64,000 nt of DNA. Source: Nitrososphaerota archaeon. Its GTDB lineage: Archaea; Thermoproteota; Nitrososphaeria; Nitrososphaerales; JACPRH01. Of this stretch, positions 1,144 through 24,013 are shown piece after piece. Location: NCBI GenBank assembly GCA_023379805.1, contig JAMCPI010000007.1, forward strand, positions 1-64,000, written 5' to 3'. The notes beneath the pieces were generated by a model. The model saw nothing but the letters and a program-made list of their open reading frames with translations, was not told where the DNA came from and made no database searches. Made by a program: the position numbers and the translations under genes. Position 1 is the stretch's first letter; every line of letters starts with the position of its first letter.

Positions 1144-1146
1144 CTT

Positions 1147-2067
1147 TTATGGCGCCTCCGTTGCCTTCATGAACGCAACTTCCAGGCTAGGCTCATCAAC
1201 TCTGAAGTTGGTGGGTGTGAAACCTGCTACATCTAATGCCTTTAGCAATTCGAACTTGTCTCCATGCTCACAGGCCACAACTATTTGTCCCTTGTGGATC
1301 TCTGCATCTTTGAAGCCTGCCTTCTCAACAGCATGCAGCATGTCCTGCGCATCATATGCGCCAACATCTATGAGTAGATGTTCACGTAGATCTGCCTTGT
1401 TCATAAAATCATCTACTAGACCTGAGCCGACAAGTTTTCCTCGGTTTATCACCAGGACATTGCCCTTGAACAGCCTAATTTCATGAGCTTCTCTTAATAG
1501 GTGTGTTGATACGATGACGCTCTTGCCTCTGCCGAGCAGCTCGCCGAGCAGTTCTCTGAATCTCAGCTGTCCCTGCACATCAAGTTGTGATGTAGGTTCA
1601 TCAAGTATCAGGATAGGTGGATCTGAAAGCTGCGAAATTCCGAGCATCAGCCTTTGCTTCATACCACCTGACAAGGCTCGAGCCTTTCGATCTCTGAAGC
1701 GCACTAGTTTGATGTCCTTCAGGGTTTCAAGTACACGTTGGGGTTTGACTCCTTTTACTCCTGCATAGAACTTTAGGTTATCCTCAACGGATAGATCGTC
1801 GTAGGGTGCAGAGTGTTGGGGTAGATAACCGATGTTTTCTCTCACCCACTTACCCTCTTTTCTTGTATCTCTGCCGTCCACCAGAATGCTTCCATCAAAG
1901 TTCAGGAGACCTAAAATACATCTGAACATTGTGGTTTTACCGGCGCCGTTTGGTCCAAGGACTGCGTAGATCTTGCCTTTTCCTACGTCGAAGGTTACAT
2001 CATCGAGTGCCTTGAACTTGCCGTACTTTTTAGTAACATGTTTTACTTCTATAGATTGAGCCGACAA
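1147..2067 (-). CDS. NosF-like ABC transporter ATPase (copy 1)
   Basis: A 306-residue cytoplasmic ATPase. Walker A is GPNGAGKTT, the signature is LSGGMKQRL and Walker B is LILDEP; a C-terminal extension of about 90 residues resembles that of ABC-2 exporters. The start is TTG at 2067; the TATA box at 2093-2100 predicts transcription from about 2070, so the message is nearly leaderless. It pairs with the permease at 313-1143. Its paralogue at 7971-8912 shares the KYGKF N-terminus. Substrate unknown; NosF-type metal-centre assembly is one reading. Confidence 0.88.
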   Translation of the reverse strand: MSAQSIEVKHVTKKYGKFKALDDVTFDVGKGKIYAVLGPNGAGKTTMFRCILGLLNFDGSILVDGRDTRKEGKWVRENIGYLPQHSAPYDDLSVEDNLKFYAGVKGVKPQRVLETLKDIKLVRFRDRKARALSGGMKQRLMLGISQLSDPPILILDEPTSQLDVQGQLRFRELLGELLGRGKSVIVSTHLLREAHEIRLFKGNVLVINRGKLVGSGLVDDFMNKADLREHLLIDVGAYDAQDMLHAVEKAGFKDAEIHKGQIVVACEHGDKFELLKALDVAGFTPTNFRVDEPSLEVAFMKATEAP

Positions 2068-2092
2068 CGCAGTACGCTTACTGTAATATGAT

Positions 2093-2100
2093 TTTTATAA
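2093..2100 (-). promoter_or_regulatory. TATA box of NosF-like gene
   Basis: TTTATAAA on the minus strand, centred about 29 nt before the TTG at 2067. The spacing predicts a nearly leaderless transcript. Confidence 0.55.
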
Positions 2101-2212
2101 ACGTTTCTAAGAAGTAAGAACCCGTACATTCTTACTCTCGATAAGCTTCTAGATTAGCTTCAGCAGCGGATATCTGTTGAAAACTGAAAATGAAAAGGGG
2201 GCTTCCGTGTGT

Positions 2213-3265
2213 TTAGAAGCCTCGGTATCTCCAGATTATGATTGCTGTTACGACAACTACAATTGCGAAGATTGGGATAATGATGAGAAGTGGATCTATC
2301 TCTACTCCTTTCGGCTCTGGACCCTTTATTGCGTCAGCGAGTTCACTGTCAAGAACGAAACCGACTCCTTTGATATCTGAGCCGAGACCAGTTGTTATTG
2401 TGGCTGTTTTAACTCCTGCTCTGTCTGATTTGATGGCTGTTAGGGTTAGGGTCTTGTCTTTGGCTTCAGATACAACCATTATCTCTGCGAGATGGTCTTT
2501 CACCAAGTCTCTGTCTATCTTGACGATGGCTCCTGTCTTCTGCTCTGCTACGTATAGATCGCTAAGTGTCTGGGCGTAAAGGATCTGCTTCGGTGTACCT
2601 TCAGCGATTTGTGTTACTGTTCTCACGTTATGGGTTGTGTGTGATACTGCTAGGACTTTGCCGTCTGCAGTTGTTACGAGTATATCACCGCTAAAGTCTC
2701 CGAACTCGTCACGTGCTACCGTTACTGCTGTTGGGGCGGAGTTGGCTCCCAAATCAGCGACTTTTTCACGATCACCGTTTCTATCAATTACCCAGACTAC
2801 TCCATCTTTTGTCACTGCGGCTAATTTGTCATTCCAATATGCACGGTTATCGAAGGCAAGGCCCACTACATCAACTCCGTTTGCGGGTGTCGTGAAGACC
2901 CTTACAGTGTTTCCGTCGGCGCTAATTTCATGGATCTGGTCGCCGGAGGTGGCGTAGATGTAGCCTGCTGGGAAGTATACGCCTGAAGAGGCAGCGATAT
3001 GGGTGTTATCTCCTTTAGCCGCGAATGTGGCTCCGAAGCGGTTTATCGATCTGTCATGAGGATCTACAGCGTATAGTTTAGTGATGTTGTCTTCTGCTGA
3101 TGGGAAAATGAACAGTTTTCCTGTCCATATTAATCCTGACGGAGGGTTGTCCATAGATATGTAGTTCTCAGTTTTCACTTGTGCCTGTGCGAATGCTGGA
3201 ATTAGTTGAAACAGCATTAAGATGAGCAGCGAAGATACTGTAACCTGAGTCTTCAGGTGGTTCAT
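2213..3265 (-). CDS. Secreted beta-propeller-like protein with C-terminal membrane anchor
   Basis: A 350-residue protein with a signal peptide (LLILMLFQLIPAFAQAQ, residues 14-30). The body has repeated short strands with NG/DG turns (YAVDPHDRS, QIHEIS, VWVIDRNG, VLAVSHTTH, IVKIDRD), as in SMP-30/NHL-type propellers. A C-terminal helix (LLIIIPIFAIVVVV) is followed by WRYR. It should therefore sit on the outer face of the membrane. The gene is 145 nt upstream of the NosFY-like pair on the same strand but that pair has its own TATA box. No paired His-His copper motif is present, so it is not an N2O reductase. Function unknown; it may partner the exporter. Confidence 0.75.
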   Translation of the reverse strand: MNHLKTQVTVSSLLILMLFQLIPAFAQAQVKTENYISMDNPPSGLIWTGKLFIFPSAEDNITKLYAVDPHDRSINRFGATFAAKGDNTHIAASSGVYFPAGYIYATSGDQIHEISADGNTVRVFTTPANGVDVVGLAFDNRAYWNDKLAAVTKDGVVWVIDRNGDREKVADLGANSAPTAVTVARDEFGDFSGDILVTTADGKVLAVSHTTHNVRTVTQIAEGTPKQILYAQTLSDLYVAEQKTGAIVKIDRDLVKDHLAEIMVVSEAKDKTLTLTAIKSDRAGVKTATITTGLGSDIKGVGFVLDSELADAIKGPEPKGVEIDPLLIIIPIFAIVVVVTAIIIWRYRGF

Positions 3266-5454: not shown

Positions 5455-6234
5455 TTGACATTCAGCATTGCTGTTTCAGGCAAAGGAGGTACGGGTAAGA
5501 CCACTATCTCTGCGCTACTGGTTTCTCTTCTCAAAAACCCTAACAGTGATCCAATACTAGCAGTAGACGCGGATCCTAATTCGAATCTGAACGAGGCCTT
5601 AGGAGTCAAGGCTGAGCTCTCAGTAGGGCGGGCACGCGAGCTGCTTCTGGAGAACAAGGATAAGCTAGGTCCGAATCAGACTAAGGAGGATTACTTCAAC
5701 TACCTGTTCCAGAGTGCTGTTGAGGAGTTCGACGGCTTCGACCTGCTAGTTATGGGTAGGGCAGAGGGCCCCGGGTGCTACTGCTACGTTAACAATTTGC
5801 TCAGGAAAATTATGGATGAGCTCGCCGGGCGATATCAGCTAATGATTGTGGATACCGAGGCCGGGCTGGAGCACTTCAGTCGAAGGACGACCCGAGACAT
5901 CGACATACTTCTGGTTGTGACCGATCCTACCGCTAAGGGTGTAATGACCGCGAAACGAGTTAGCGATCTTATTAAGTCACTTAACGTGGGTATACACAAA
6001 GCGTTCCTAATCATAAACCGGGTTCCCCCGCAGTTCATGAATAAGGTCAAGGATCTGGAGAAGGCTTCAGGACTCAAATGCATCGCAGTTATTCCTGAAG
6101 ACTCTTCGGTTCAGGAGTATGATTTGGCTGGAAAACCCATTCCAGATCTACCTGACAACTCCCCAGCTTTGAATGCGGTTAAAGAACTCGTGGAGAAGCT
6201 AGGGATTCCTCAGCTTGAAAAGGTGAAGCCTTAA
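5455..6234 (+). CDS. cooC: CooC-type nickel-insertion ATPase 1
   Basis: A 259-residue MinD/SIMIBI-class ATPase. The deviant Walker A is GKGGTGKTT (residues 9-17), and a Cys-x-Cys pair lies at 108 and 110 (GCYC), the metal site of CooC at the dimer interface. DTEAGLEHFSRR matches the switch II region. Start is TTG at 5455. In known systems CooC dimerises on nickel and ATP and helps load nickel into CO dehydrogenase or acetyl-CoA synthase. A second CooC begins 1 nt after its stop. No CO dehydrogenase gene lies in the window. Confidence 0.87.
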   Translation: MTFSIAVSGKGGTGKTTISALLVSLLKNPNSDPILAVDADPNSNLNEALGVKAELSVGRARELLLENKDKLGPNQTKEDYFNYLFQSAVEEFDGFDLLVMGRAEGPGCYCYVNNLLRKIMDELAGRYQLMIVDTEAGLEHFSRRTTRDIDILLVVTDPTAKGVMTAKRVSDLIKSLNVGIHKAFLIINRVPPQFMNKVKDLEKASGLKCIAVIPEDSSVQEYDLAGKPIPDLPDNSPALNAVKELVEKLGIPQLEKVKP

Positions 6235-6235
6235 C

Positions 6236-7030
6236 GTGAAGCTAGCTGTCGTAGGCAAAGGGGGGGTAGGTAAAACCCTGATATCAGGAACCCTCGCCCG
6301 ACTTTTGGCCCGAGATGGCTACAAGGTCTTGGCGATAGATGTGGATCCTTCTATGAACTTAGCCTATTCTATCGGGGTGCCAGTTGATGTTGCCGCTAAA
6401 ATTGTTCCTCTCTCAGAGGATCATGACTTGATTGAGGAGCGGACGGGTGCGAGGCCGGGCTCTTCAGGATCGGTTTTCAGCTTGACCCCGACTGTTTTCG
6501 ACATCGCTGAGAAGTACGGTGTACCAGGCCCTGATGGTATTCGGTTACTTGTGATGGGTACTGTTCGTTCAGGTGGTTCAGGCTGCATGTGCCCAACGAA
6601 TGCGTTGGCGAAGGCCTTGATGCGGCATCTTCTGGTCTCGGTGAAGGAGGCGGTTGTGATGGATATGGAGGCTGGGCTTGAGCATCTTGGTCGTGGAACT
6701 GTCAGAGGTGTTGATGCGATGCTGTGTGTGGTTGAGCCTCGGATGCAGTCGATTGAAACTGCTAAGCGTATCGAGGATCTCTCTAAGGATCTGGGTGTTA
6801 AGACTGTTCTCGTTGTGGCTAACAAGGTTAAGCGTGATGAGGATTTGGCTCTAATTGAGCGGGCTCTTGCTGGTTCCGATATGCGTATAATCGCATCAAT
6901 CCCGTACGATGAGTCAATGGAGCAGGCCGATATGTCGCGGACAGCTCCGTTAGATTTCGCGCCCGACTCCACAGTTGTCAAAGCTGTGGATCTCCTCAAA
7001 CACAGTATTATCTCTCGCTACAGCCGGTAA
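6236..7030 (+). CDS. cooC: CooC-type nickel-insertion ATPase 2
   Basis: A 264-residue paralogue of the preceding gene. Walker A is GKGGVGKTL, the Cys-x-Cys pair is at 117 and 119 (GCMC) and DMEAGLEHLGRGT forms the switch region. Start is GTG at 6236, immediately after the previous stop, so the pair is co-translated. The two copies differ around the metal site (GPGCYC versus GSGCMC), which suggests either a heterodimer or separate clients. Role as in CooC1; the client enzyme is not in the window. Confidence 0.87.
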   Translation: MKLAVVGKGGVGKTLISGTLARLLARDGYKVLAIDVDPSMNLAYSIGVPVDVAAKIVPLSEDHDLIEERTGARPGSSGSVFSLTPTVFDIAEKYGVPGPDGIRLLVMGTVRSGGSGCMCPTNALAKALMRHLLVSVKEAVVMDMEAGLEHLGRGTVRGVDAMLCVVEPRMQSIETAKRIEDLSKDLGVKTVLVVANKVKRDEDLALIERALAGSDMRIIASIPYDESMEQADMSRTAPLDFAPDSTVVKAVDLLKHSIISRYSR

Positions 7031-7130: not shown

Positions 7131-7964
7131 TTAGTTGTCTCTTAGGTAGAACTCTATTGTCGAGAACACCATTGCTGCAGCGAACCATGCTCCCATTGAT
7201 ATTGTGAGCGGCACTAGGGATCCGTTGAAGCCGAAGTAGCGTATCATGAACTGTTCAGAGACGCTTGGCGAGAATTCTGGTCGTATCAGTATGAATGCGA
7301 TGATGCGGGTGGTCTCTATCGGGTTGAAAAGTATGAAGTACAGGAAGGATTGGCTTTCGCCTGATGCTATAAAAGTCACGCCTAGCAGCCCGATGTCGTA
7401 GATCACTGTCATGAAGAGCCAAATGAAGAGAGCTATTGATATTGCCATTGCTCGGCTGGCTGATATTACTGATATAGCGAAGGATACCGCAAGCATGACC
7501 GCTGACATTCCTACAAGTATCATGACTCCGTAGAAGAAGTCGTGTAATCCCACCTCAGCTACGTTCGTGCTTCCGAATGAAGGTAGCAGTGCGAGTCCGA
7601 CTCCGACGACCATTATCACCGAGATCGTCAGAAATAATCCGATGTATTTGCCTATGAGCACATCGATGCGTCTAATAGGTTGTGATAGCAGGTACGCGAT
7701 TGTTCTTTGCTCCTTTTCGGCGGAGACGCTTAGAGCACCGATGCTGATAGTGATTAAAGCGCCAAGCGAGGTTGCGACACTTAGGAATGTCCCTATCTTA
7801 CCAGGTATATTCGAGTAAGGGAAGAGTCCCAGCAAAACTAGGGATAAGTAGGGTATCTGAAGAACCAAAAGAAAGAAGAGCGCTGAGAGTACAAGAAACC
7901 ATCGGTTGGTGATGGAGTCCTTGAACTCCTTCTTTGCGATGATTATAATCGGTGGGAACTTCAT
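7131..7964 (-). CDS. NosY-like ABC-2 type permease (copy 2)
   Basis: A 277-residue membrane protein with about six helices. It opens with KKEFKDSITNRW, nearly the same as copy 1, and has the EKEQRTIAYLLSQPI loop seen in this family. It ends 100 nt from CooC2 in convergent orientation and follows its ATPase gene by 6 nt. Substrate unknown. Copy 1 and copy 2 enclose the cooT-cooC-cooC genes, so duplication followed by divergence is likely. Confidence 0.85.
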   Translation of the reverse strand: MKFPPIIIIAKKEFKDSITNRWFLVLSALFFLLVLQIPYLSLVLLGLFPYSNIPGKIGTFLSVATSLGALITISIGALSVSAEKEQRTIAYLLSQPIRRIDVLIGKYIGLFLTISVIMVVGVGLALLPSFGSTNVAEVGLHDFFYGVMILVGMSAVMLAVSFAISVISASRAMAISIALFIWLFMTVIYDIGLLGVTFIASGESQSFLYFILFNPIETTRIIAFILIRPEFSPSVSEQFMIRYFGFNGSLVPLTISMGAWFAAAMVFSTIEFYLRDN

Positions 7965-7970
7965 CTTTAC

Positions 7971-8912
7971 TTACACCTCGTTTTTTACTTCGCTTCGCTT
8001 AGGCTCGTCACCAGTGATCCTGAGGAAGGCGTCCTCCAAGCTTGGATCATAGACTCTGAAGTCTTTAATGACCAAGCCCGATTCATCTAACGCTCTAAGC
8101 ACCGGTATCTTATCGGGTGCTTCAACTGAGACTATGATGCGGTCGGCTTCGATGGAGACAGTTTTGGCTCCAGCTTTCCTCAGCATCTCCTCAACGTCGT
8201 TTACTGCCTGTTCGTCAATCTTTTCGACGAGAGTTATGAGTATACGGGTGTTTAGCTCAACCTCTCTCATAATCTCGTTGATGGAGCCCTCCGTGACCAG
8301 TTTTCCTTGATTCATCACAATAATCCGGTTTGCGATTTCGTTAATATCGCTGAGGAGGTGTGTGGACAAAATTATCGTCTTTCCTTTGCGTGAAAGTGAA
8401 TCAACCACTTCCTTGAAGGCGAGTACGCCTCTGATATCGAGGTTAGCTGATGGCTCGTCGAAGAGAATAATGGGGCTGTCCCCTAGGAGAGTCGTGGCGA
8501 GCATTAGCCTCTGCTTCAAACCTTCAGAGAGCTCTGAAACCTTTTTGCTCGCATGCTCTTTCAATCCATTTTCCTCAAGGCTTCTGCTAATCGTATCATT
8601 ATCGAGCCGTTTGACCCCTGCGAAAAACTTTAAGTTGTCTGCCACACTCATATGGTTGTAGAGCGAGACTTGCTGTGGATGATAGGCTACTCGTCTCCTA
8701 ACATCAACACCGCTCTTCTTCACATCTAACCCGTCAACTTTGATGCTTCCATTGAAGGTGACTAGGCCAATAATGCATTTCAAAACAGTGGTTTTTCCTG
8801 CGCCGTTAGGGCCTAGGAGCGCAATTAGCTCGTTTTTGTCAACCTTGAAGCTTACATCATCGACTGCGTTGAACTTTCCGTATTTTTTGGTCACTCCGTT
8901 CAGTTCAATCAT
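7971..8912 (-). CDS. NosF-like ABC transporter ATPase (copy 2)
   Basis: A 313-residue ATPase. Walker A is GPNGAGKTT, the signature is LSEGLKQRL (the usual Gly-Gly is Glu-Gly here), and Walker B is IILFDEP. A C-terminal extension ends in PSLEDAFLRITGDE, matching PSLEVAFMKATEAP of copy 1. An AT box near 8949-8958 (TTTATTAAA on the minus strand) could drive it with a short leader. It forms an exporter with the permease at 7131-7964. Confidence 0.87.
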   Translation of the reverse strand: MIELNGVTKKYGKFNAVDDVSFKVDKNELIALLGPNGAGKTTVLKCIIGLVTFNGSIKVDGLDVKKSGVDVRRRVAYHPQQVSLYNHMSVADNLKFFAGVKRLDNDTISRSLEENGLKEHASKKVSELSEGLKQRLMLATTLLGDSPIILFDEPSANLDIRGVLAFKEVVDSLSRKGKTIILSTHLLSDINEIANRIIVMNQGKLVTEGSINEIMREVELNTRILITLVEKIDEQAVNDVEEMLRKAGAKTVSIEADRIIVSVEAPDKIPVLRALDESGLVIKDFRVYDPSLEDAFLRITGDEPKRSEVKNEV

Positions 8913-8993: not shown

Positions 8994-9461
8994 CTATTTC
9001 TTGACGTATGGTTTATGACAGTCGCCGCAGATGCTTTGCGTAGTTTCTTTTGGAATGCCTAGCTCAAACTTATGCTGAAGGTGACAGGTTGTGCATCTAG
9101 CAGGAATATGCGCTATGTGTGAGTGGGCGTCAACAATTCGTACCTCGACTACCCAGAGCCAAGGAAACTTTGTTTTATTTGAGCGGTCGTAATCTTGGTG
9201 GCAGGTCAAGCAGTTAGCGTCGCTTATCGGCTTCGGGTACTTGTGACAGTCCATGCAGGTGACGTTTGCCTTCCCGTGAGGGGAGACGACGTAGCCCTTA
9301 ACATAGGGTTCTTCATTGTGGCATGATGCGCAGCTCTTAGGATCGTTGCTATAGGTTGATCCACCTACGGATGTTGATGTCGCCAAAGAGAGCGTGACGG
9401 CGGCTAATGCAATGATGAGTACAACTGCGAAAATGACTGTTACGACTACGTTGCGCGCCAT
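8994..9461 (-). CDS. Membrane-anchored pentaheme cytochrome c (NapC/NirT/NrfH-like)
   Basis: A 155-residue protein with one N-terminal helix (VVVTVIFAVVLIIALAAV) and five CxxCH heme motifs: CASCH, CMDCH, CLTCH, CTTCH and CGDCH. Size and layout resemble small quinol-oxidising NapC/NrfH-type cytochromes, which pass electrons from quinol to outside reductases; NrfH has four hemes, so five is slightly unusual. It stands 81 nt upstream of the NosF-like gene on the same strand. No cytochrome c assembly genes are seen nearby. Confidence 0.87.
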   Translation of the reverse strand: MARNVVVTVIFAVVLIIALAAVTLSLATSTSVGGSTYSNDPKSCASCHNEEPYVKGYVVSPHGKANVTCMDCHKYPKPISDANCLTCHQDYDRSNKTKFPWLWVVEVRIVDAHSHIAHIPARCTTCHLQHKFELGIPKETTQSICGDCHKPYVKK

Positions 9462-14844: not shown

Positions 14845-15003
14845 GTGCTTCGGACATTAATCAACGCGTTGTATACCCCGAATATATGGCAGAATAGGCT
14901 TGACGATAACATTGGGATAATCGTTGTCGTAGCAGCCTTCACTATAGTAGCCATTCACTTCATAATCAGGCATGTCAACCCTCCTCTCAGGGGAGATCAT
15001 TGA
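14845..15003 (+). CDS. Small one-helix membrane protein heading the AOR operon
   Basis: A 52-residue frame from GTG at 14845 to TGA at 15001-15003. It starts VLRTLINALYTPN, has a single helix (IGIIVVVAAFTIVAIHFII) and a short basic/proline tail. A purine-rich GGCGGAG lies 4 nt before the GTG. Its stop is separated from the cytochrome b ATG by one base, and the Shine-Dalgarno of the cytochrome gene lies inside its last codons. This coupling suggests it is a small subunit of the membrane complex. No family recognised. Confidence 0.55.
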   Translation: MLRTLINALYTPNIWQNRLDDNIGIIVVVAAFTIVAIHFIIRHVNPPLRGDH

Positions 15004-15004
15004 A

Positions 15005-15718
15005 ATGACTGACGAAAAAGTTAGACGGCATGATATTGCCCAGAGAGTGTATCATTGGGTAAATCTATCAAGCTTGCTTATACTCCTCTGGACTGGGTTA
15101 ACAATTTACGATCTGAACCTATTCGGTCTTCAACCTTTATCAGCATTCGCGAAGACAGTTATAGGTACTACCTACACTCCGCTAATTTACGATCTACATC
15201 GATATGCGGCATTCACACTCCTAGGTTCATTGATTTTCCACATTACATATGATACCGGAATAAGGGGTATCTTTTGGAGCGAGTTACCCTCTAGAGCTGA
15301 CTTTAAAGCTCAGAACGTTATGGCCAAGAACTTCTTGGGTCGATCAAGAGAATACGTAAAGTTCCACAAGTACAACCCTGGTCAGAAGATGCTTCACATC
15401 GGTATCGCTATAGTCGTCCTTCTGATCGGTGCAACCGGCTTAATGTTGAGTGCCAATTACCGTTGGCTTGTTCCAATCTGGTTCTTAAATGTCAACTTTG
15501 ATTTTCTGCTCTACTGGACTAGAGTTCTCCATGATGTGCTCACCTTTGCGCTTGTCGCGATGGTGGTAATGCACTTCTACTTCTCTGTAAGGTTAGAGAA
15601 CCTGCCGACATTCAAGAGCATGATAACCGGTTGGGTGCCACGGCACTATCAGGAGAAACACTTCTCTTCCACAGAGGAGCCTGAGCTAATCCCAGCATCG
15701 CACGAAAAGGAGAGATAA
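15005..15718 (+). CDS. FdhI-like cytochrome b subunit
   Basis: A 237-residue protein with four transmembrane helices. Heme-ligand candidates are the His in RVYHWVNL (helix 1), LHRYAAF and LIFHITYD (helix 2) and LHDVLTF and VVMHFYF (helix 4), the layout of formate dehydrogenase gamma/cytochrome b561-like subunits. It would pass electrons between a ferredoxin-type subunit and the quinone pool. The ATG at 15005 has GGGGAG upstream; an earlier in-frame start at 14972 overlaps the preceding small gene and is less likely. The next gene encodes the iron-sulfur subunit. A paralogue is at 23186-24013. Confidence 0.88.
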   Translation: MTDEKVRRHDIAQRVYHWVNLSSLLILLWTGLTIYDLNLFGLQPLSAFAKTVIGTTYTPLIYDLHRYAAFTLLGSLIFHITYDTGIRGIFWSELPSRADFKAQNVMAKNFLGRSREYVKFHKYNPGQKMLHIGIAIVVLLIGATGLMLSANYRWLVPIWFLNVNFDFLLYWTRVLHDVLTFALVAMVVMHFYFSVRLENLPTFKSMITGWVPRHYQEKHFSSTEEPELIPASHEKER

Positions 15719-15730
15719 AGGTGATAATAA

Positions 15731-16480
15731 ATGGGTGAAGAATCGGGTATGCCAAAAACTTCGCGTCGAAAATTTATAGCCGGCGCCGCCATAGTTGGCG
15801 CAGTAGTAACCGTCGAGGCCGCTTCAACAGTCGGATACTTCAATCACCAATATGAGCCGAGGACACCTCCAAAGCCTAAGGGTGTTGTCGTAACCGATAT
15901 GGAAGTATGTGGCGGCTGCAGAAGCTGTCAAGCGGCTTGCACCGCATATAATGAGGGTGAAGTTCAGCCGGATCTATCTAGAATCCAGATACTGAAAGAT
16001 TACTTTTCAGGCGACTATCTTCCAAACCCCTGTTCTCAATGTGTATGGCCTGGTTGCCTCTACTCCTGTCCAACAGGTGCGCTGCAGGTTGATACTGGTA
16101 CGGAGGGCGGTTTACCTCAGCTTGAGGTGAGGCTTACATCGTTGCTATCGGGCAAGCTAACCCCCGATACTACACCAGGAACTAACGCGAGAGTCGTCAA
16201 TACGAGAGAGTGCATCGGGTGCCAGCAGTGTGTCGAGGGCTGCGCGAAGATATTTGACATCTCAAGGGTTAGGTTCAACACGAAGAAACAGGTTGTAACC
16301 AAGTGTCACCTCTGCGGCGGAAAACCTCAATGTGTCAGGTTCTGTCCTGTAGGCGCCATTATGTATGCCAGCTCAGATCAAGGTGTTTCCAACGGCTACG
16401 ACGGCCAAGGTAACATCATCTGGAGGCCTCCTGAGGCTAAAGCGAAGCGCGAGGACGAGCTCAGAGGAATCTTGTGGTAA
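15731..16480 (+). CDS. Tat-exported four-cluster ferredoxin subunit of the AOR complex
   Basis: A 249-residue protein with a twin-arginine signal (TSRRKFIAGAAIVGAVVTVEA). Four cysteine groups follow: CGGCRSCQAAC, CSQCVWPGCLYSC, CIGCQQCVEGC and CHLCGGKPQCVRFC. That is the four [4Fe-4S] arrangement of HybA/DmsB/FdnH-type electron-transfer subunits. A GGTGA ribosome site lies 7 nt before the ATG. It sits between the cytochrome b gene and the AOR gene, so it should link the two. The Tat signal implies an extracytoplasmic position, or an uncleaved anchor. Confidence 0.9.
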   Translation: MGEESGMPKTSRRKFIAGAAIVGAVVTVEAASTVGYFNHQYEPRTPPKPKGVVVTDMEVCGGCRSCQAACTAYNEGEVQPDLSRIQILKDYFSGDYLPNPCSQCVWPGCLYSCPTGALQVDTGTEGGLPQLEVRLTSLLSGKLTPDTTPGTNARVVNTRECIGCQQCVEGCAKIFDISRVRFNTKKQVVTKCHLCGGKPQCVRFCPVGAIMYASSDQGVSNGYDGQGNIIWRPPEAKAKREDELRGILW

Positions 16481-16502: not shown

Positions 16503-18494
16503 ATGTTCGGTTGGAAAGGTCAAGTCTTAAGAGTAGATCTAACATCTGAAACAATCACGAAGGAGAAGACTAAAAACTACGTTCCGAAATTCATCGGTGG
16601 ACGAGGCATAATTGCCAAAGTCCTGTGGGACGAGGTTCCACCTGAAGTGAAGGCATTCGATCCTGAGAACAGAATCATCTTTGCGACAGGACCACTCACA
16701 GGCACAAACACACCCTCTAACGGACGGTGGCGTATCGGCTCTCTCGCACCTCAGCATCCGAAAGAGTACCCATCGCATTCAGGAATCGGTGGACACTGGG
16801 GAGCAGAGCTAAAGTTCGCGGGATACGATGCGGTCATTGTTCAAGGCAAAGCGAAGAAACCTAGCTACATATTCATCTATGACGATAAAGTAGAGATTAG
16901 AAGTGCGAGCAAGATCTGGGGCGTAGACGCCATCAAGAGCCAGAAGATGATCCAAGAGGATCTCGCAAACGATAAATCGCTAACAGGTCAAGAAAAGCCT
17001 CAGGCAGGACGTTACAATCCTCAACTAGTCAGAACTGTCCTAATAGGACAAGCCGGTGAAAATCAAACTAGGGTCTCCTCGATCCTCCACGACTCCGGTG
17101 ACGCTGCAGGCCAATGCGGCTTCGGCGGAGTAATGGGCTCAAAGAACCTCAAAGCCATCGCTGTGAGAGGAACAGGAAGCGTACCCGTTGCGAAACCTAA
17201 GGATCTGGTTGAATCGGTGTTCAAGGCTCGAAAGATGCTCAGGGCTCAGGCAAAACCTGTTGTGCCAGCGTACGGTGGCCCCGGCGGCATCTACGGCGGA
17301 GACCCGAAGATCTTGACGAGCCACATGAAGAGGCTTGACGGTTGCTTCGGCTGCCAAGTCATATGCAGAGCATACATTGCACCGCCCGGAATCACCGCGG
17401 GTCAAGCTCAGTGTGTCCAACTCCAGATGTACTATAACTGGGAAGGTGTAGGACCTGTCTGTCCACCACACCCAGACTTCTTGAATAGGCCACAGGATGA
17501 GACAACTTGGTACGGAGTAAAGCTCGCTGACGAGTATACTATCAACTCCTTCGAACTAACGGGATTCCTATCATACCTATGGGCAGCCTACAAAGCAGGC
17601 ATTCTTAACGAGGAGAACACCGGCGGTATTCCGTTCAAAGATTTCGGTAGCAAAGAGTTTGCTGACAAGCTCTTCAGCATGATAGCTAAGCGTGAAGGGT
17701 TCAGGAACGAGTTCGGAGACCTCTTAGCTGAAGGAATGCACCGTGCGGCTCTTCAGTTGAAAGAAAAGTATGGTGACAAGGCGTGGCAGCTCTACGAGGA
17801 AAGATACACAGCTCACGGTATGAGGCAGCACTGGTTCTACATAGGAAGCGCTAAAGGCCCCGGAGACCAAACAGGTTACCCGAACCCGATCGGACAACTT
17901 CTCTGGGCTACAGATACACGTGACCCATACTCGAACACTAGCCGGAACAGAGAAACTTACGGAAGTCAGGATCTCTGCCAATACCTATACGGCACTAAAG
18001 ACGCGGCAAACCCCTTCAGCTATGCGGGTAAAGCACAGGCTGCTGTGGTCAGCCAGCACCGCGCAGTCTTGATAGACTCAGTTAGCGCTTGTGACTGGTT
18101 CTTCCCAATTCAAACCAATAACCCACTGTTCAAGGAAGAGGCAGGTATCAAGGCTGAAGGCACTGGTTGGAAGGAGGCTGAAGCTGAGTTCTACTCACTC
18201 GTCACAGGCATAAACACGACACTCGACGGTCTCTTCACCGACTCAGAACGCATCTTCAATATTGAACGCGCAGCCCAAGTGATAAGGGGTAGAACACGTG
18301 AAGAAGACACCTTCAACGAGTACTACTTTACACACAAAGACCGACGAAATAACGCAATCGACCGCTCTGCCTGGGAGAAAGCGAAGGACGACTACTACCA
18401 GTTGCGCGGCTGGGACCTAAAGACTGGTATACCCACCAGAGAGCGGCTGGAGAGCCTCGACCTCAAAGACGTCGCGAACAAGCTCAACGTATAG
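16503..18494 (+). CDS. Aldehyde:ferredoxin oxidoreductase family tungsten enzyme
   Basis: A 663-residue enzyme starting MFGWKGQVLRVDLTSE, typical for the family. The [4Fe-4S] ligands are Cys281, Cys284 and Cys288 (CFGCQVIC) with the fourth at Cys530 (SVSACDWF). The N-terminal domain has GRGIIAKVLWDEVP and the GRWRIGSLAP region that contacts the pterin. Family members oxidise aldehydes to acids with a tungsto-bispterin. The substrate here is not known; length exceeds the roughly 605 residues of the Pyrococcus enzyme. No signal peptide. GGTGA lies 8 nt before the ATG. The operon context recalls E. coli ydhYVWXUT, where an AOR-like protein is joined to ferredoxin and cytochrome b subunits. Confidence 0.93.
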   Translation: MFGWKGQVLRVDLTSETITKEKTKNYVPKFIGGRGIIAKVLWDEVPPEVKAFDPENRIIFATGPLTGTNTPSNGRWRIGSLAPQHPKEYPSHSGIGGHWGAELKFAGYDAVIVQGKAKKPSYIFIYDDKVEIRSASKIWGVDAIKSQKMIQEDLANDKSLTGQEKPQAGRYNPQLVRTVLIGQAGENQTRVSSILHDSGDAAGQCGFGGVMGSKNLKAIAVRGTGSVPVAKPKDLVESVFKARKMLRAQAKPVVPAYGGPGGIYGGDPKILTSHMKRLDGCFGCQVICRAYIAPPGITAGQAQCVQLQMYYNWEGVGPVCPPHPDFLNRPQDETTWYGVKLADEYTINSFELTGFLSYLWAAYKAGILNEENTGGIPFKDFGSKEFADKLFSMIAKREGFRNEFGDLLAEGMHRAALQLKEKYGDKAWQLYEERYTAHGMRQHWFYIGSAKGPGDQTGYPNPIGQLLWATDTRDPYSNTSRNRETYGSQDLCQYLYGTKDAANPFSYAGKAQAAVVSQHRAVLIDSVSACDWFFPIQTNNPLFKEEAGIKAEGTGWKEAEAEFYSLVTGINTTLDGLFTDSERIFNIERAAQVIRGRTREEDTFNEYYFTHKDRRNNAIDRSAWEKAKDDYYQLRGWDLKTGIPTRERLESLDLKDVANKLNV

Positions 18495-18543
18495 ATCTGA
18501 CATCCAGCAAACAAGTCGGCTAATGCGTTAAGGGTCCATTGAT

Positions 18544-18568
18544 TAGGGTAGCCTATGCGGCTACTCTA
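18544..18568 (+). terminator. Hairpin terminator after AOR gene
   Basis: A 10-bp stem (18544-18553 with 18559-18568, one G-T pair) with a 5-nt loop, followed by a T-rich stretch (TATCTTTCTTT). It lies between the convergent AOR and DsbA-like genes. Confidence 0.5.
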
Positions 18569-18639
18569 AGTATCTTTCTTTGATAGAATCTAAAGCAAGC
18601 AGCGTAGAAGAAAGTTGGTGACTAGTTAATTCCTAGTTT

Positions 18640-19335
18640 TTACTGTCGCTTAAGTTCAGAGTCGATGGTATCTTTAAAGACGCTGTAGGGCTGCGCCCCC
18701 ACTACTCTTATTCCGTTGATGAAGAAGGTTGGGGTTCCAGATACTTGTGCCTTCTGTCCGTCTTGGAGGTCTTTTGAGATTTCACCGGAGTATTTGTTGG
18801 TGTTGAGGCAGCTGCTGAACTGGGTTATGTTTAATTTGAGTGTTGAAGCGTATTTTTCGAATGTGGTTGTAGCGTTTTCGGATATCCAAGCCTGCTGGTT
18901 TCCGAAGAGTAGGTCGTGGTATTCCCAGAACTTTCCTTGTTCTTTAGCGCATTCTGCTGCTTCGGCGGCTTTTTCCGCGTAGGGGTGGATCTTTGTGATG
19001 GGGAAGTTTTTGTAGACGAGTCTGATTCTTCCTGTGTCTATGTAGTCTTTTTGTATTTGTGGTAATGTTTCGTTGAAGAAACTTGCGCAGAAGGGGCATT
19101 GGAAGTCGCTGAACTCTACTATTGTAACTGGAGCGTTCAAATCTCCTAGTGACGGAGCGTTGCCTATTGGGATGTTTTGCCGTTGTGGAGGTTGATTGCC
19201 GGTTGACGGTTGAGCTGACAGCAGTGAGGGTAAGTAAATTCCTATCAGGATTCCTCCGAGGAGTCCGATTGTCAGCATCGCTGCTCCGAACATCTTCGGA
19301 TGGGCTAGTAAACCGCTTGAAGGCTGGTTTTCCAT
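18640..19335 (-). CDS. DsbA-like secreted thioredoxin-fold oxidoreductase
   Basis: A protein of about 231 residues with an N-terminal membrane anchor (MFGAAMLTIGLLGGILIGIYL) and a thioredoxin-4 domain. The active site is CPFC in SDFQCPFCASFF; GTPTFFING contains the cis-proline. It would form or isomerise disulfides outside the cell, or recycle copper-site cysteines. The frame is open to 19392, but the TATA box at 19393-19400 predicts transcription from about 19370, so I start at the ATG at 19335 (MENQPSSG). It neighbours the CuA proteins, whose paired cysteines would need to be kept reduced for copper loading. Confidence 0.87.
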   Translation of the reverse strand: MENQPSSGLLAHPKMFGAAMLTIGLLGGILIGIYLPSLLSAQPSTGNQPPQRQNIPIGNAPSLGDLNAPVTIVEFSDFQCPFCASFFNETLPQIQKDYIDTGRIRLVYKNFPITKIHPYAEKAAEAAECAKEQGKFWEYHDLLFGNQQAWISENATTTFEKYASTLKLNITQFSSCLNTNKYSGEISKDLQDGQKAQVSGTPTFFINGIRVVGAQPYSVFKDTIDSELKRQ

Positions 19336-19392
19336 AATGTATAGAACACTCAACACTACAATAAACTTATTTTCTGACGTGAAGCTTTCCAT

Positions 19393-19400
19393 ATTTATAG
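19393..19400 (-). promoter_or_regulatory. TATA box of DsbA-like gene
   Basis: CTATAAAT on the minus strand predicts transcription near 19370. This excludes the in-frame ATG at 19392 and supports the start at 19335. Confidence 0.5.
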
Positions 19401-19515
19401 ATTCAGTGTATTTAGTTTTTCATGTGGTAATCAATGAAGTTATTTTTAGTTCTTAATGTTTAAGTCAAATGTATTTATCAACGGCTAATGCGGGGTTATA
19501 CTGACGGTTCACCAA

Positions 19516-20031
19516 GTGACGAAGCACCCTTTAAACCGCAGACGTTTGCTTCTCGTTATGCTAGTGCTTGGACTGCTAATTGGCACAACCTCTGCAGGGC
19601 TTGTAATGGCTCAGTCAACGTCAGATAGTTATGTGAAAAAGTTTAATGTGAAGGCCTTTCGCTTCGGGTACAGCCCAGAGGTCTTGGTGGTCAACCAAGG
19701 CGATATAGTTGTTATTACTGTGGAGTCGCAGGATGCTGTACACGGCTTCTACATTGAAGAGTACGAAGTTAGGCAGGATGCTATTCTACCCGGTACACCG
19801 CAGACAGTCTCATTCGTAGCCGATAAGATAGGGATGTTCAGGATTCACTGCTCATCAATATGCGGCTCGCTGCATCCGTTCATGATGGGGCAGCTAATTG
19901 TTCAGCCAAGCATTCGCTTCATCGGGAGCGCCCTCGGCATCTCAGGCATAACTGTCGCATTCTTCGCATATGTCTGGATGCGATCAGAGCCTAAAGAAGA
20001 AAGTAAGAAAGAGGAGGATAACAAAAATTGA
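19516..20031 (+). CDS. CuA-domain membrane protein 1 (COX2/NosZ-C-like)
   Basis: A 171-residue protein with an N-terminal signal or anchor (LLLVMLVLGLLIGTTSAGLVMA), a cupredoxin domain and a C-terminal helix (ISGITVAFFAYVWM). All CuA ligands are visible: His76, Cys112, Cys116, His120 and Met123 (HGFY and CSSICGSLHPFM). Such sites pass electrons in cytochrome oxidase subunit II and N2O reductase. The gene overlaps the NapH-like gene by 4 nt. No oxidase subunit I is nearby, so its electron acceptor is unknown. Confidence 0.9.
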   Translation: MTKHPLNRRRLLLVMLVLGLLIGTTSAGLVMAQSTSDSYVKKFNVKAFRFGYSPEVLVVNQGDIVVITVESQDAVHGFYIEEYEVRQDAILPGTPQTVSFVADKIGMFRIHCSSICGSLHPFMMGQLIVQPSIRFIGSALGISGITVAFFAYVWMRSEPKEESKKEEDNKN

Positions 20032-21491
20032 CAGACGAGAAGATGCCGCCGCAACAACCGGAGCAACAACAAGATCTGCAGCAACCGCAGTCCTACCGGA
20101 GAAAGGATTTGCTTCAGTACCCGTTTGTGAAAAAGGCGATTTTGGGCCGGAATTTACAGCCTTTAGCGCAACTCATCAACTTTGCTCTCTTCACCTTTGT
20201 CATAGCAACCGGTTTCATAGGAATCAGTCTTGGAGCCAAGAACCTTGCCGTCGTATTCACTTGGATACTTTGGTCTGTGCTTCTTGCTCTAGTTTTGACT
20301 CCGCTGATGGGTAGGTCTTGGTGCTTCATGTGCCCGGTCGTGTGGCCTGGCGAAATAATCCAAAGGAGGCTATGGAGTCGCTTCGGAACATCGTCACTTC
20401 GGAATCGACGTTGGCCTAAGCTGCTACAGAACGTTTGGCTTCAGGACTTTATCTTCCTCACCTTCGCGAGCTGGATGGTTGTCCTAGTCACGCAACCGTT
20501 CGTAACTGCGGTGGCGGTGATATTCCTAATGTCTGTTGCAGTGGTTGTGTTTTCTCTCTTTTCGCGTAGAAGGTTCTGTCGCAATCTGTGTCCAATGGGT
20601 CTTTTCATTGGGATATACTCATCTTTCTCGCCTGTAGAGGTTAGAGTCAAAGATCGAGACATCTGCCTAATTCCGCCTGAGAAGGGAGGATGCCACAAAG
20701 AGTGTTATGTGGGAAGCGAGAAGGGTTACGGCTGCCCATGGTACGAGTTTCCTCAGAACATGGTTTCGGATGTTGACTGCGGCTTATGCACTGAGTGCTA
20801 CAAGACCTGCCCTAAGGACAACATTGCACTCAACGTAAGGCCTTTCGGCGTCGAGCTTGAGTCTGAGAAGGTGAAGCGAAAGCCCGATGAAGCTTGGAGA
20901 TCCATGATTTTGCTCGCGCTCCCAATTGTATACACTGCTGTGCTCTTTGGTCCGTGGAGCTGGATTAAGAACTGGGGCGATCTGCTACTCTACAACAGCT
21001 CAGTAGGTCTCCCACAACACCTATTCTACGTCCTCCTAGTTGCCGATGTCGCGCTCGGCTTAGTGCCTGGGCTTCACTATCTCGCCGCACTAGGCGCGAA
21101 GTTCCTAGCGGAGCCGAAGGGAGTCTCCGCAAGAACACTTTTCGTGAACTACGCTTACGCATATATCCCGCTTGGGCTGATGCTCTGGGTAGGCTTCAAC
21201 TTCTCACTGATTATGATGGAGTGGTCATACATTCCAGTCGTAGCTTCAGATCCGCTTGGTGCGGGATGGAACCTGCTGGGAACTACTCACCTGCCTTGGA
21301 TGCCTTTTGCACTCCCTATTCCTATCGCGGAGATCGCGTTTGCGATTCTAGGAGTGTTCTTCTCACTAAAAGTCGGATACACTACGCTCAGACGAATATT
21401 TCCAGATAAGATGCAGGCAATTATGGCGCTGATCCCATTCGCCGTCCTAACAGCTACTTTGGCGATAATCTTCCTATGGTTCTATGTATGA
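20028..21491 (+). CDS. NapH/NosR-like membrane iron-sulfur protein
   Basis: A 487-residue protein with about ten helices in two blocks. The first block (residues 50-180) ends in two CxxxCP-type motifs: CFMCP at 99-103 and CRNLCP at 184-189, hallmarks of NapH/NosR/CcoG-like proteins. A cytoplasmic ferredoxin region follows (CHKEC, GYGCPW and CGLCTECYKTCP). A second block of helices fills the C-terminal half and does not resemble NapH. It starts with TTG at 20028 inside the previous gene. In N2O and nitrate respiration such proteins carry electrons across the membrane. Flanking CuA proteins make them its likely partners. Confidence 0.87.
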   Translation: MTDEKMPPQQPEQQQDLQQPQSYRRKDLLQYPFVKKAILGRNLQPLAQLINFALFTFVIATGFIGISLGAKNLAVVFTWILWSVLLALVLTPLMGRSWCFMCPVVWPGEIIQRRLWSRFGTSSLRNRRWPKLLQNVWLQDFIFLTFASWMVVLVTQPFVTAVAVIFLMSVAVVVFSLFSRRRFCRNLCPMGLFIGIYSSFSPVEVRVKDRDICLIPPEKGGCHKECYVGSEKGYGCPWYEFPQNMVSDVDCGLCTECYKTCPKDNIALNVRPFGVELESEKVKRKPDEAWRSMILLALPIVYTAVLFGPWSWIKNWGDLLLYNSSVGLPQHLFYVLLVADVALGLVPGLHYLAALGAKFLAEPKGVSARTLFVNYAYAYIPLGLMLWVGFNFSLIMMEWSYIPVVASDPLGAGWNLLGTTHLPWMPFALPIPIAEIAFAILGVFFSLKVGYTTLRRIFPDKMQAIMALIPFAVLTATLAIIFLWFYV

Positions 21492-21500
21492 TCTAGGTGG

Positions 21501-21941
21501 ATGAGAGGGTTGGAGCGAAAAAACATCCGTGTTAAGAAGAGCGGGTTCGAAAGAACCCTCGCTGTGCTACTGATAATCATCACCGCGTTACCCACCTATG
21601 GTGCCCTCTACTGGTATGAAACCAACAGATACCCGGTCATAGGTGGCGACGGCGGCACAAAAGAGTTCTACGTAACCGCGATGATGTGGCAGTTCTACCC
21701 TCAGAACATCACCGTAAATAAAGGCGACCACGTCATCATTCACCTAACAAGCATGGATGTTCAACACGGATTCTACAATGTGCAATGGAACCTAACCGCC
21801 AAAGTATTCCAAAATCAGACGGCGACTATTGAGTTCACTGCAGATAAAGCCGGCGTCTTTGAGTACTACTGCACATACTACTGCGGAATCGGTCATTTCG
21901 ACATGAAAGGCTACATCAAGGTCGAAGACAGGAAATCATAG
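21501..21941 (+). CDS. CuA-domain membrane protein 2 (COX2-like)
   Basis: A 146-residue protein with one N-terminal helix (TLAVLLIIITALPTYGALYWY) and a cupredoxin domain. The CuA ligands are His89, Cys124, Cys128, His132 and Met135 (HGFYNVQW and CTYYCGIGHFDM). It lacks the C-terminal helix of the first CuA protein. It lies 9 nt after the NapH-like gene and ends the operon. The two CuA proteins probably act in series or with different partners; the reason for two is not visible in the sequence. Confidence 0.9.
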   Translation: MRGLERKNIRVKKSGFERTLAVLLIIITALPTYGALYWYETNRYPVIGGDGGTKEFYVTAMMWQFYPQNITVNKGDHVIIHLTSMDVQHGFYNVQWNLTAKVFQNQTATIEFTADKAGVFEYYCTYYCGIGHFDMKGYIKVEDRKS

Positions 21942-22064
21942 ATCCAAACAGATAGTTTAATCTTGATGAGGATCTAAAACTGCTCCCAACCTTCTACCTA
22001 TTCAGCTCGATGCAGAGATGTGGTGTAGCTTGCCTGAGGGCTAGCTGAATATGTAATAGTTTAG

Positions 22065-22721
22065 CTAGTCTACGACTTTGACTTGAGCAATCATCTGCGG
22101 ATGCGGTATGCAGTAATACTGGTATGTTCCTAATTTGTCGAATTTGAAGGTGTACTCTTGATTCTGCTGTAGTAGCTTTGAGTCCCATGTTCTGTCGTTA
22201 GCTGTAGAGGTGTGTCCTGTAGGATCCTTGTTTATCCATGTGACCTCGGTTCCTTTTCGTATTGTTAGGTTGGTTGGATAGAACCAGAAGTTTACGATGT
22301 TGACGACTACGCGTCCGGTTCCTACTACGTTTATCTTACCTGTGATTTTATGAACTAGTCCTCCGCCGTTCGCTTCTACAATAATGTCATTGAGTCCGGC
22401 TGGCGCGTCTTTAGATACTTTGAAACTCATTTTTAACGATGTGTTTTCGCGGCTGGCTAGCTGGGTGACATTGTTATCGAAATACGCATTTACTCCTTCG
22501 GGTGCTTGAGTAACCCGGAGACGAATTTGGGATGAGAAGCCGCGCAGCGATGATAGATCGATGCTGTACGTGCCAGAGTCGCCCTGATAGACCTGCTGAG
22601 TACCGGGTGCAATATTGATCGAGTAGTCCGGCGGCTCGCTAAAAGCCATGTAACCTACAGCGATGTTCAGCCCCAGCATAGCTGCGACTGTGACTATGAT
22701 GAGGGTGTTTGAGACATGCAT
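22065..22721 (-). CDS. Membrane-anchored type-1 cupredoxin (plastocyanin-like)
   Basis: A protein of about 218 residues: an N-terminal helix (TLIIVTVAAMLGLNIAVGY), a beta-sandwich domain of about 100 residues (YSIDLSSLRGFSSQIRLRV...) resembling COG1470-type sugar/membrane modules, and a C-terminal plastocyanin domain. Type-1 copper ligands are the His in DPTGHTS and Cys, His and Met in CIPHPQM. The TATA box at 22749-22756 places transcription near 22726, so I prefer the ATG at 22721 over the one at 22742. It could carry electrons to or from the CuA proteins. Confidence 0.87.
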   Translation of the reverse strand: MHVSNTLIIVTVAAMLGLNIAVGYMAFSEPPDYSINIAPGTQQVYQGDSGTYSIDLSSLRGFSSQIRLRVTQAPEGVNAYFDNNVTQLASRENTSLKMSFKVSKDAPAGLNDIIVEANGGGLVHKITGKINVVGTGRVVVNIVNFWFYPTNLTIRKGTEVTWINKDPTGHTSTANDRTWDSKLLQQNQEYTFKFDKLGTYQYYCIPHPQMIAQVKVVD

Positions 22722-22748
22722 CTTGTGTTGCGTAGCGTTCATCTAACG

Positions 22749-22756
22749 ATATATAG
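22749..22756 (-). promoter_or_regulatory. TATA box of cupredoxin gene
   Basis: CTATATAT on the minus strand predicts transcription near 22726 and supports the internal start at 22721. Confidence 0.5.
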
Positions 22757-22927
22757 ATTCTCCTGTCTATTTGCGCTACAGTGGTCTTAACAGATTTTAG
22801 CAGGCGTAAAATCAGGTTATGTACTTTTACTATGCAGACAAGTTTAGGTAAGGATAAACGACTTGAAAGCAGTAAATTTCCTTCGCAACGAATGTTAACT
22901 CAACGTCGGATGAAGTGTTGTTCTTAG

Positions 22928-23101
22928 ATGAGGTGCGGGATCTTCCTCCAACGACTCCGCTGTTACCCCACATCTACTCCGGTGGTACCGACCATAACAA
23001 CCATCGTGCAGAGCGATGGTACGTTCACCTATGTAGCTATTGGTGTAACGATGGTGGCCACCATAGTTATGGTCGCAGTAATTCGTTCCAAACAAATGTA
23101 G
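22928..23101 (+). pseudogene. Remnant or small gene: Thr/Pro linker plus C-terminal helix
   Basis: The stretch 22743-23185 holds no full gene. Within it a frame from ATG 22928 to TAG 23099-23101 encodes 57 residues: an odd basic start, then PTSTPVVPTITTIVQSDG and a helix (YVAIGVTMVATIVMVAVI) ending RSKQM. This looks like the C-terminal stalk and anchor of a surface protein. In the next frame just upstream the sequence reads NSTSDEVLFLDEV, as if a frameshift had split a longer gene. I favour a decayed surface-protein gene, but a genuine small protein is possible. Confidence 0.4.
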
Positions 23102-23185
23102 TTTAGTGAACGGGCTCGTTTCATCTTCATAGGTTGAGTGGAGTCTAATTGTGATGGTTGAATCAGGCATTAGTGTATGTTGCGG

Positions 23186-24013
23186 TTACTGCTGTTTAGA
23201 TGTTTGTTCTGCTTGCTTCTTCTGTTCTGCTTCTTCTTCAATCTTCAGTCTACCGTAGATGATGCCTCGGAATACTTTCCAGTTTGTCGGAATTAAGGTG
23301 CTGAAGTAGAAGTGTCCTATTATGAGGCCTACCAGTGTGAAGGTGAGTATGTCATGTAGGAATCTGCTCTTGAAGATGTAGAGCCAGTCGTTGAACGCGT
23401 CCAAACCTGATGCTTGGATGAATCCTTGGAAGGGCTCCCAGATTGTGAGTCCCGTGAAGCCTAGGAGAAAGATGTCAACAAATATGGCCCAGTGGAACAT
23501 TTTCTGCATCGGATGAAGCTTCTCCAGCCGCGGATACTCTTTTGTGCGTGCAGTGAAGTTTTGGATAATGGCCTTCATGTTCGCGATATCGAGCCGTGAG
23601 ACCCATGCCTCCCTGAATTTGCGGATGATTAAGGAGTCGTAGACAATGTGAAAGATGCCTAGATTGATCACGGCGATAGAGAAGTACCAGTGATAAGCAA
23701 CCCAATTTCTAAGACCCACCGACGCGATCTGCGGGCTAACATTGGAAAAGTAGTCCATCTTGTATATGAATACCCCCGTGATGAACAGACCTAGGAGCAG
23801 GGCGAGGAAGAGCCAGTGAATCACTATCTGAATCTTATCATACCGCTCAATCTGCTCAAAGACCATGTTCCACCGCTGACCTCTTCTACCATAGATAATT
23901 TCACGGAAGAAATGCGCTACACAGCCGAAAATAGATACAGCTATAATCGTTAGTGCGAGCGAATCATCTAGCCGGAATGGAACACCAGATATCTGGAGCA
24001 GGCTCGAGAACAT
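23186..24013 (-). CDS. FdhI-like cytochrome b protein (copy 2)
   Basis: A 275-residue membrane protein. An extra N-terminal helix (ALTIIAVSIFGCVAHFF) precedes the four-helix cytochrome b core. Heme-ligand candidates are in IQIVIHWLF, VAYHWYF and LGIFHIVYD, MFHWAIF, and RFLHDILTF with IIGHFYF. The core aligns by eye with the AOR-linked cytochrome b at 15005-15718 (HD-LTF-LV and HFYFS are shared). The tail is acidic/Gln-rich and cytoplasmic. No ferredoxin subunit is adjacent; the NapH-like protein across the divergent cupredoxin gene is a possible partner. Confidence 0.85.
   Translation of the reverse strand: MFSSLLQISGVPFRLDDSLALTIIAVSIFGCVAHFFREIIYGRRGQRWNMVFEQIERYDKIQIVIHWLFLALLLGLFITGVFIYKMDYFSNVSPQIASVGLRNWVAYHWYFSIAVINLGIFHIVYDSLIIRKFREAWVSRLDIANMKAIIQNFTARTKEYPRLEKLHPMQKMFHWAIFVDIFLLGFTGLTIWEPFQGFIQASGLDAFNDWLYIFKSRFLHDILTFTLVGLIIGHFYFSTLIPTNWKVFRGIIYGRLKIEEEAEQKKQAEQTSKQQ

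Follow-up and report, generated by a model that had tools for sequence, protein, structure and literature searches.

A CuA-NapH-CuA gene triplet detached from any reductase gene in a Nitrososphaerota archaeon: a probable quinol-to-copper electron module

What purpose might two CuA proteins serve when no terminal oxidase is encoded alongside them? The question is raised by a gene cluster within a 64,000-nucleotide stretch (the window; contig JAMCPI010000007.1 of assembly GCA_023379805.1) from a Nitrososphaerota archaeon that is related to the ammonia-oxidising archaea (AOA) but does not itself oxidise ammonia. An initial annotation had described two CuA proteins around a NapH/NosR-like protein, accompanied by a cupredoxin and a cytochrome b, and had suggested a quinol-to-copper electron chain. 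All five genes lie where it had placed them and belong to the families it had named, as judged from open reading frames (ORFs) and profile matches (COX2/Cupredoxin_1, Fer4_5 and the NapH subfamily, Copper-bind and Ni_hydr_CYTB; Table 1). The CuA1 and NapH-like genes overlap by four bases (-4) and the NapH-like and CuA2 genes are separated by +9, so that the three (19516-21941) read as one operon, with the cupredoxin and cytochrome b561 genes (22065-24013) convergent towards the triplet. The best explanation, in which we have good but not full confidence, is that the triplet is a quinol-to-CuA module whose electrons go to an extracytoplasmic acceptor encoded apart from it.

Both CuA proteins carry the complete ligand set that had been annotated, H-(C-x3-C-x3-H-x2-M), as seen in CSSICGSLHPFM and CTYYCGIGHFDM. 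In an alignment of 19 CuA domains, the first histidine, both cysteines and the second histidine are invariant and the methionine nearly so, the single exception being a row truncated by a contig end; the ligands, on whose conservation in homologues the initial annotation had staked its proposal beforehand, are conserved. Hydropathy places helices at residues 12-30 and 135-153 of CuA1, and indicates a C-terminal anchor for CuA1 and an N-terminal one for CuA2. The two proteins share the CuA cupredoxin fold and ligands with cytochrome c oxidase subunit II and the CuA domain of NosZ, and by sequence they match Thermus ba3 subunit II and NosZ best among PDB entries. They differ from these systems in that neither subunit I nor the catalytic propeller domain of NosZ is encoded beside them, and their scores of 58.0 and 44.5 bits fall short of the 147.7-bit CoxB cut-off (TIGR02866). 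The cupredoxin has the copper ligands H177, C211, H214 and M217. One could also imagine that the two CuA proteins deliver copper or assist in assembly and do not carry electrons, since a DsbA-like gene is adjacent in the window and NosF/NosY-like ATP-binding cassette (ABC) genes follow the module in one relative (L063). We consider this very improbable, because full CuA ligand sets are kept in both proteins and because CuA is fused directly to enzymes in the relatives described below.

The NapH-like protein carries a CxxCP motif (C99-C102-P103) followed by a CxxxCP motif (C184-C188-P189); the initial annotation had read CxxxCP motifs here, which is right for the second and wrong for the first. 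All four cysteines of these motifs are invariant in 44 homologues, in which the motifs and the ferredoxin cysteine set taken together are invariant or nearly so. Hydropathy predicts nine helices (4 + 5), in agreement with the annotated extra C-terminal membrane block, and the cysteine-bearing loops, being rich in lysine and arginine, are probably cytoplasmic. The four-helix N-terminal block, the Cys-Pro motifs and the cysteine-rich, ferredoxin-type loop are shared with the NapH/MauN proteins (TIGR02163) of NapGH and NosGH, whereas the host operon has CuA proteins in the place of NapG, which is absent from among its neighbours, and an additional five-helix block. The TIGR02163 cut-off is not reached (42.5 against 213.05 bits), and the match to NosR (17.7 against 1000 bits) covers 64 residues only, well short of a NosR-length match. 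AlphaFold2 modelled the protein with confidence (pLDDT 86, pTM 0.88). No PDB entry matched its fold at E<=0.001 in a fold search, nor did a PDB search with the NapH profile yield a match.

The closest described counterpart is found in Methanoperedens, where an operon of NarG, NarH, NarJ, Orf7, heme-copper oxidase subunit II (HCO II), a nine-helix NapH and a second HCO II was suggested to form an unusual nitrate-reducing complex (Arshad et al. 2015, PMC4683180); the enzyme has also been described as a non-canonical nitrate reductase (PMC13079737). The published operon corrects a suggestion of the initial annotation, that CuA sites are not known outside oxidases and NosZ. When compared with the published description, the window shows the same order of CuA, NapH and CuA genes, adjacent and on one strand, the same nine-helix NapH with five helices in an extra C-terminal block, and the same division between a first CuA protein with a signal and one helix and a second with one helix and no signal. 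It differs in lacking NarG, NarH, NarJ and Orf7, in place of which stand cupredoxin and cytochrome b561 genes. The host module probably acts like the HCO II-NapH-HCO II part of the Methanoperedens complex, uncoupled from any reductase gene. Our literature searches found no description of a CuA-NapH set outside Methanoperedens; the kind of module is already published, and what is added here is its orphan setting and the spread of its partners.

Conservation was sampled in a phylum-wide set of 398 genomes, in five genomes of the host's own family, and through a scan of named genomes that yielded 77 loci (labelled L0xx or L1xx for the module regions of relatives; G399 and G401 are genomes of relatives and G000 is that of the host). 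A search of related genomes for the CuA-NapH-CuA order, which the initial annotation had proposed, found it kept in four of the five family genomes, with NapH orthologues at 69-93% identity and CuA1, CuA2 and the cupredoxin arranged alike wherever the contig allows. Phylum-wide, NapH matches occur in 15 of the 398 genomes, the host included, and judged by NapH the closest of the named relatives, at 95%, is a 'Thaumarchaeota archaeon' from groundwater. The 77 loci come from archaea and from Chloroflexota, Planctomycetota, Acidobacteriota, Omnitrophota and other bacteria. When the flanks of NapH were counted frame by frame in the 63 loci with room on both sides, CuA was found on both flanks in 56, with the full ligand pattern in 52 of those, which is far above chance. 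A lack of conservation of the cluster, which the initial annotation had named together with a dedicated oxidase or nosZ operon elsewhere as counting against its proposal, was therefore not seen. About 25 loci have CuA1 and NapH joined in one protein. A small protein that belongs to no Pfam or NCBIfam family, 122-153 aa long in most cases, recurs immediately before the fused CuA1::NapH gene in nine loci (L061:11891-12304 and relatives). More distant NapH homologues, at 30-33% identity, occur in the Sulfolobaceae-like loci L038-L044. In L043 (L043:8175-10937) a CuA protein adjoins NapH, but these loci have oxidase-type genes and a CBS/polyferredoxin protein nearby and no CuA-NapH-CuA triplet; the family label is tentative, and the loci may resemble the 'fox' iron-oxidation cluster.

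The genes that accompany the module in relatives indicate what it might serve. Of the 77 loci, 17 have NarG-type genes nearby, and 15 of these are among the 52 loci that extend at least 6 kb to one side; NarH, NarJ and a heme-b gamma subunit are usually present too. A rough estimate based on one or two NarG-type genes per genome predicts about one case by chance. Within the window's own genus, L133 carries a second, fused module, downstream of which lie NarG, NarH, heme-b gamma and NarJ, members of the type II dimethyl sulfoxide (DMSO) reductase family. In Geothermarchaeum (L076) the module is divergent from NosZ (802.7 bits, over cut-off), which is accompanied by NosL, NosD and an ABC pair, and another NosZ is found among the module's neighbours in the Chloroflexi locus L075. 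Fusions add to these associations: a single protein at L084:7532-8971 joins a CuA2 domain to the copper nitrite reductase NirK (over cut-off), another at L035:1442-3211 combines a cytochrome d1 propeller (E 4.5e-99) with an additional CuA and adjoins a CuA1::NapH fusion, and Chloroflexi have CuA2 joined to cytochrome c (L074 by profile, L077 by motif). Because L076 (with NosZ), L079 (with NarG) and L034 (with neither) form one NapH clade with support of 100/100, the partner changes while the module stays. We infer that the module is a common unit that delivers electrons to extracytoplasmic acceptors.

On this reading, the NapH-like protein would oxidise quinol, and the electrons would travel by way of its iron-sulfur clusters to CuA1, which a helix keeps on the outer side of the membrane, and from there to CuA2, whose output would be an exchangeable extracytoplasmic acceptor. 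In the host, the cupredoxin probably shuttles the electrons to an acceptor whose gene lies elsewhere. The initially proposed quinol-to-copper chain fits all of the findings, while its electron direction and acceptor are inferred. That electrons run from quinol to CuA and cupredoxin is likely, the direction being argued from the presence of NapH and from usual redox potentials, as the potential of a CuA site generally lies well above that of menaquinone. The opposite flow, from an extracytoplasmic dehydrogenase (pyrroloquinoline quinone (PQQ)-dependent or other) through cupredoxin and CuA to the quinone pool or to cytoplasmic Fe-S proteins, could account for the PQQ-dehydrogenase-like gene that adjoins the module in L065, the Hdr-like genes that precede it in L034, and the aldehyde ferredoxin oxidoreductase (AOR), Fe-S and cytochrome b genes that adjoin it in the window. 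We nonetheless judge it unlikely, given these potentials and given that the partners fused or adjacent to the module in relatives are reductases. PQQ dehydrogenases together with blue copper carriers have been reported in heterotrophic marine thaumarchaea (PMC7300363), the searched passages of which do not mention a CuA-NapH module.

Which acceptor might the module then serve in the host? The initial annotation had proposed checking for co-occurrence with NosZ, oxidase and other copper enzymes; relatives supply NarG, NosZ, NirK, d1 and cytochrome c, whereas no denitrification reductase was found in the host genome. Neither NosZ nor L-NosZ was detected in it, matches being confined to CuA parts, and no cytochrome d1 was detected. 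No NarG-type nitrate reductase was detected either, nor are NarH, NarJ or Orf7 found in the window or the genome. The sole PF00384 match resembles, by eye, the formylmethanofuran dehydrogenase subunit FmdB/FwdB, and the sole PF07732 match, considered as a candidate NirK, is a single-domain cupredoxin near cox genes. NosF/NosY-like ABC genes in the window (313-2067 and 7131-8912) are only 28-33% identical to those of the nos set of L076 and are named by no curated family, and we therefore gave them no weight as a sign of Nos function. The CuA motif occurs in only four ORFs of the genome, namely CuA1, CuA2, CoxB and C3:23110-23649, the product of the last resembling the CuA part of the d1 fusion in L035.

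The absence of a terminal oxidase, as initially annotated, holds for the cluster and not for the genome, where another contig carries a complete aa3-type oxidase operon that includes a CuA subunit, with a cupredoxin close by. Electrons could therefore bypass complex III in aerobic respiration, running from menaquinol through NapH, CuA1, CuA2 and cupredoxin to the aa3 oxidase and oxygen. The presence of an aa3-type oxidase in both the host and its same-genus relative speaks for such a route, as does the cupredoxin, which accompanies the module in every family member sampled (and in L111). Against it stand the oxidase operon's own CuA subunit and nearby cupredoxin, and a cytochrome b/Rieske pair in the host genome, which led us to reject the idea that the module stands in for an absent complex III. 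In addition, G399 and G401 carry the module with no COX1 detected; since both genomes are incomplete, they argue only weakly against an oxidase as the only output. We regard the bypass as possible but doubtful.

Alternatively, the electrons may leave the module through multiheme cytochromes c, one or several, and end on an extracellular acceptor. A whole-genome reading found 25 ORFs that each hold three CXXCH motifs or more, 136 motifs altogether. Three of the products (G000:C3:60565-62802, C10:212570-214993 and C3:47186-49480) are multiheme cytochromes with 8-10 CXXCH motifs, collagen-like stalks and MtrC/MtrF-like domains, among them a decaheme on such a stalk; with 25 such ORFs in all, the genome suggests that electrons are transferred out of the cell in this member of the AOA order. 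The fusion of CuA2 to cytochrome c in Chloroflexi would fit an output of this kind, as would a pentaheme NapC/NrfH-like cytochrome c encoded about 10 kb from the module in the window (8994-9461), with two further paralogues in the genome; in L065 its 54% homologue directly adjoins the module's cytochrome b561 gene. No direct link joins the module to the large cytochromes, however, and two sets elsewhere could do the same job: each of these (G000:C10:9510-12302 and 18451-21245) comprises a multiheme cytochrome, a twin-arginine translocation (TAT) Fe-S protein and a membrane protein of NrfD-like appearance, near the cytochrome b/Rieske and ccm-like genes. We can propose this route only tentatively; between oxidase and multiheme cytochromes as the end acceptor of the quinol-to-CuA module, the odds are about equal.

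The genes around the triplet are listed in Table 1. The cytochrome b561 gene is tied to the module in L060, L064 and L065, and the divergent DsbA-like gene adjoins it in L060 and L065 but is not beside it in L064. The upstream cytochrome b561, TAT Fe-S and AOR genes form a YdhU/X/V-like set, probably a separate input enzyme; their best NCBIfam matches, PRK09898 and PRK09849, are both below cut-off, and in L065 the PQQ-dehydrogenase-like protein occupies the place of AOR. Further away, an ABC-2 permease, an ATPase and a membrane-anchored propeller protein are encoded at 313-3265, a trio whose homologues (81%, 76% and 48%) directly follow the CuA module in L063. Two adjoining genes at 5455-7030 encode CooC-like P-loop ATPases, as judged by eye from their translations.

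Table 1. Genes of the CuA-NapH-CuA cluster and its neighbours, with positions in the window
Feature	Position	Strand	Length	Family matches and features
CuA1	19516..20031	+	171 aa	COX2 PF00116 6.4e-10; conserved ligands; signal/N-terminal helix, CuA cupredoxin domain, C-terminal membrane helix
NapH-like membrane iron-sulfur protein	20028..21491	+	487 aa	TIGR02163 5.4e-11 (below cut-off); 9 predicted helices (4 + 5)
CuA2	21501..21941	+	146 aa	NosZ CuA domain TIGR04246 1.7e-21 over 481-577/578; one N-terminal membrane helix and CuA domain
Type-1 (amicyanin-like) cupredoxin	22065..22742	-	225 aa	PF00127 3.8e-10, TIGR02657 6.4e-12; N-terminal membrane helix
Cytochrome b561 / FdhI-like membrane protein	23186..24013	-	275 aa	PF01292 4.5e-20
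DsbA-like secreted thiol-disulfide protein	18640..19392	-		PF13462 9.1e-38; divergent neighbour, possibly part of the unit
Neighbouring cytochrome b561	14972-15718	+		PF01292
TAT-signal Fe-S protein	15731-16480	+		Fer4_7
Aldehyde ferredoxin oxidoreductase (AOR)	16503-18494	+		AFOR_N/C

Several points weigh against a quinol-to-CuA module with a separately encoded acceptor. Given the cytochrome b/Rieske pair, the host has no obvious need of another quinol oxidase. The host assembly is a draft of 2.34 Mb in 17 contigs, 95% complete, from an order that holds many 1.4-1.8 Mb genomes, and there is therefore some chance that the assembly lacks a reductase. The window's clade sits on a long stem in the NapH tree (1.55 changes per column), so its function may have shifted. 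Finally, the direction of flow is argued from NapH and from usual redox potentials.

In the literature that we searched, the triplet is described solely as a peculiarity of a single nitrate reductase. Its association, by adjacency or fusion, with NarG, NosZ, NirK, d1 and cytochrome c predicts one shared electron-entry mechanism for several denitrification steps in poorly known lineages, built around a NapH-like part that has no solved structural relative according to PDB sequence-profile and fold searches. A bolder idea, which we think rather unlikely, is that CuA-NapH-CuA is a general plug-in quinol:CuA oxidoreductase of archaea and bacteria, here detached from denitrification and driving electron export via multiheme cytochromes; we found no report of such export through this triplet in Nitrososphaerales. 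The orphan module thus raises the question of what a non-ammonia-oxidising thaumarchaeon respires through it.

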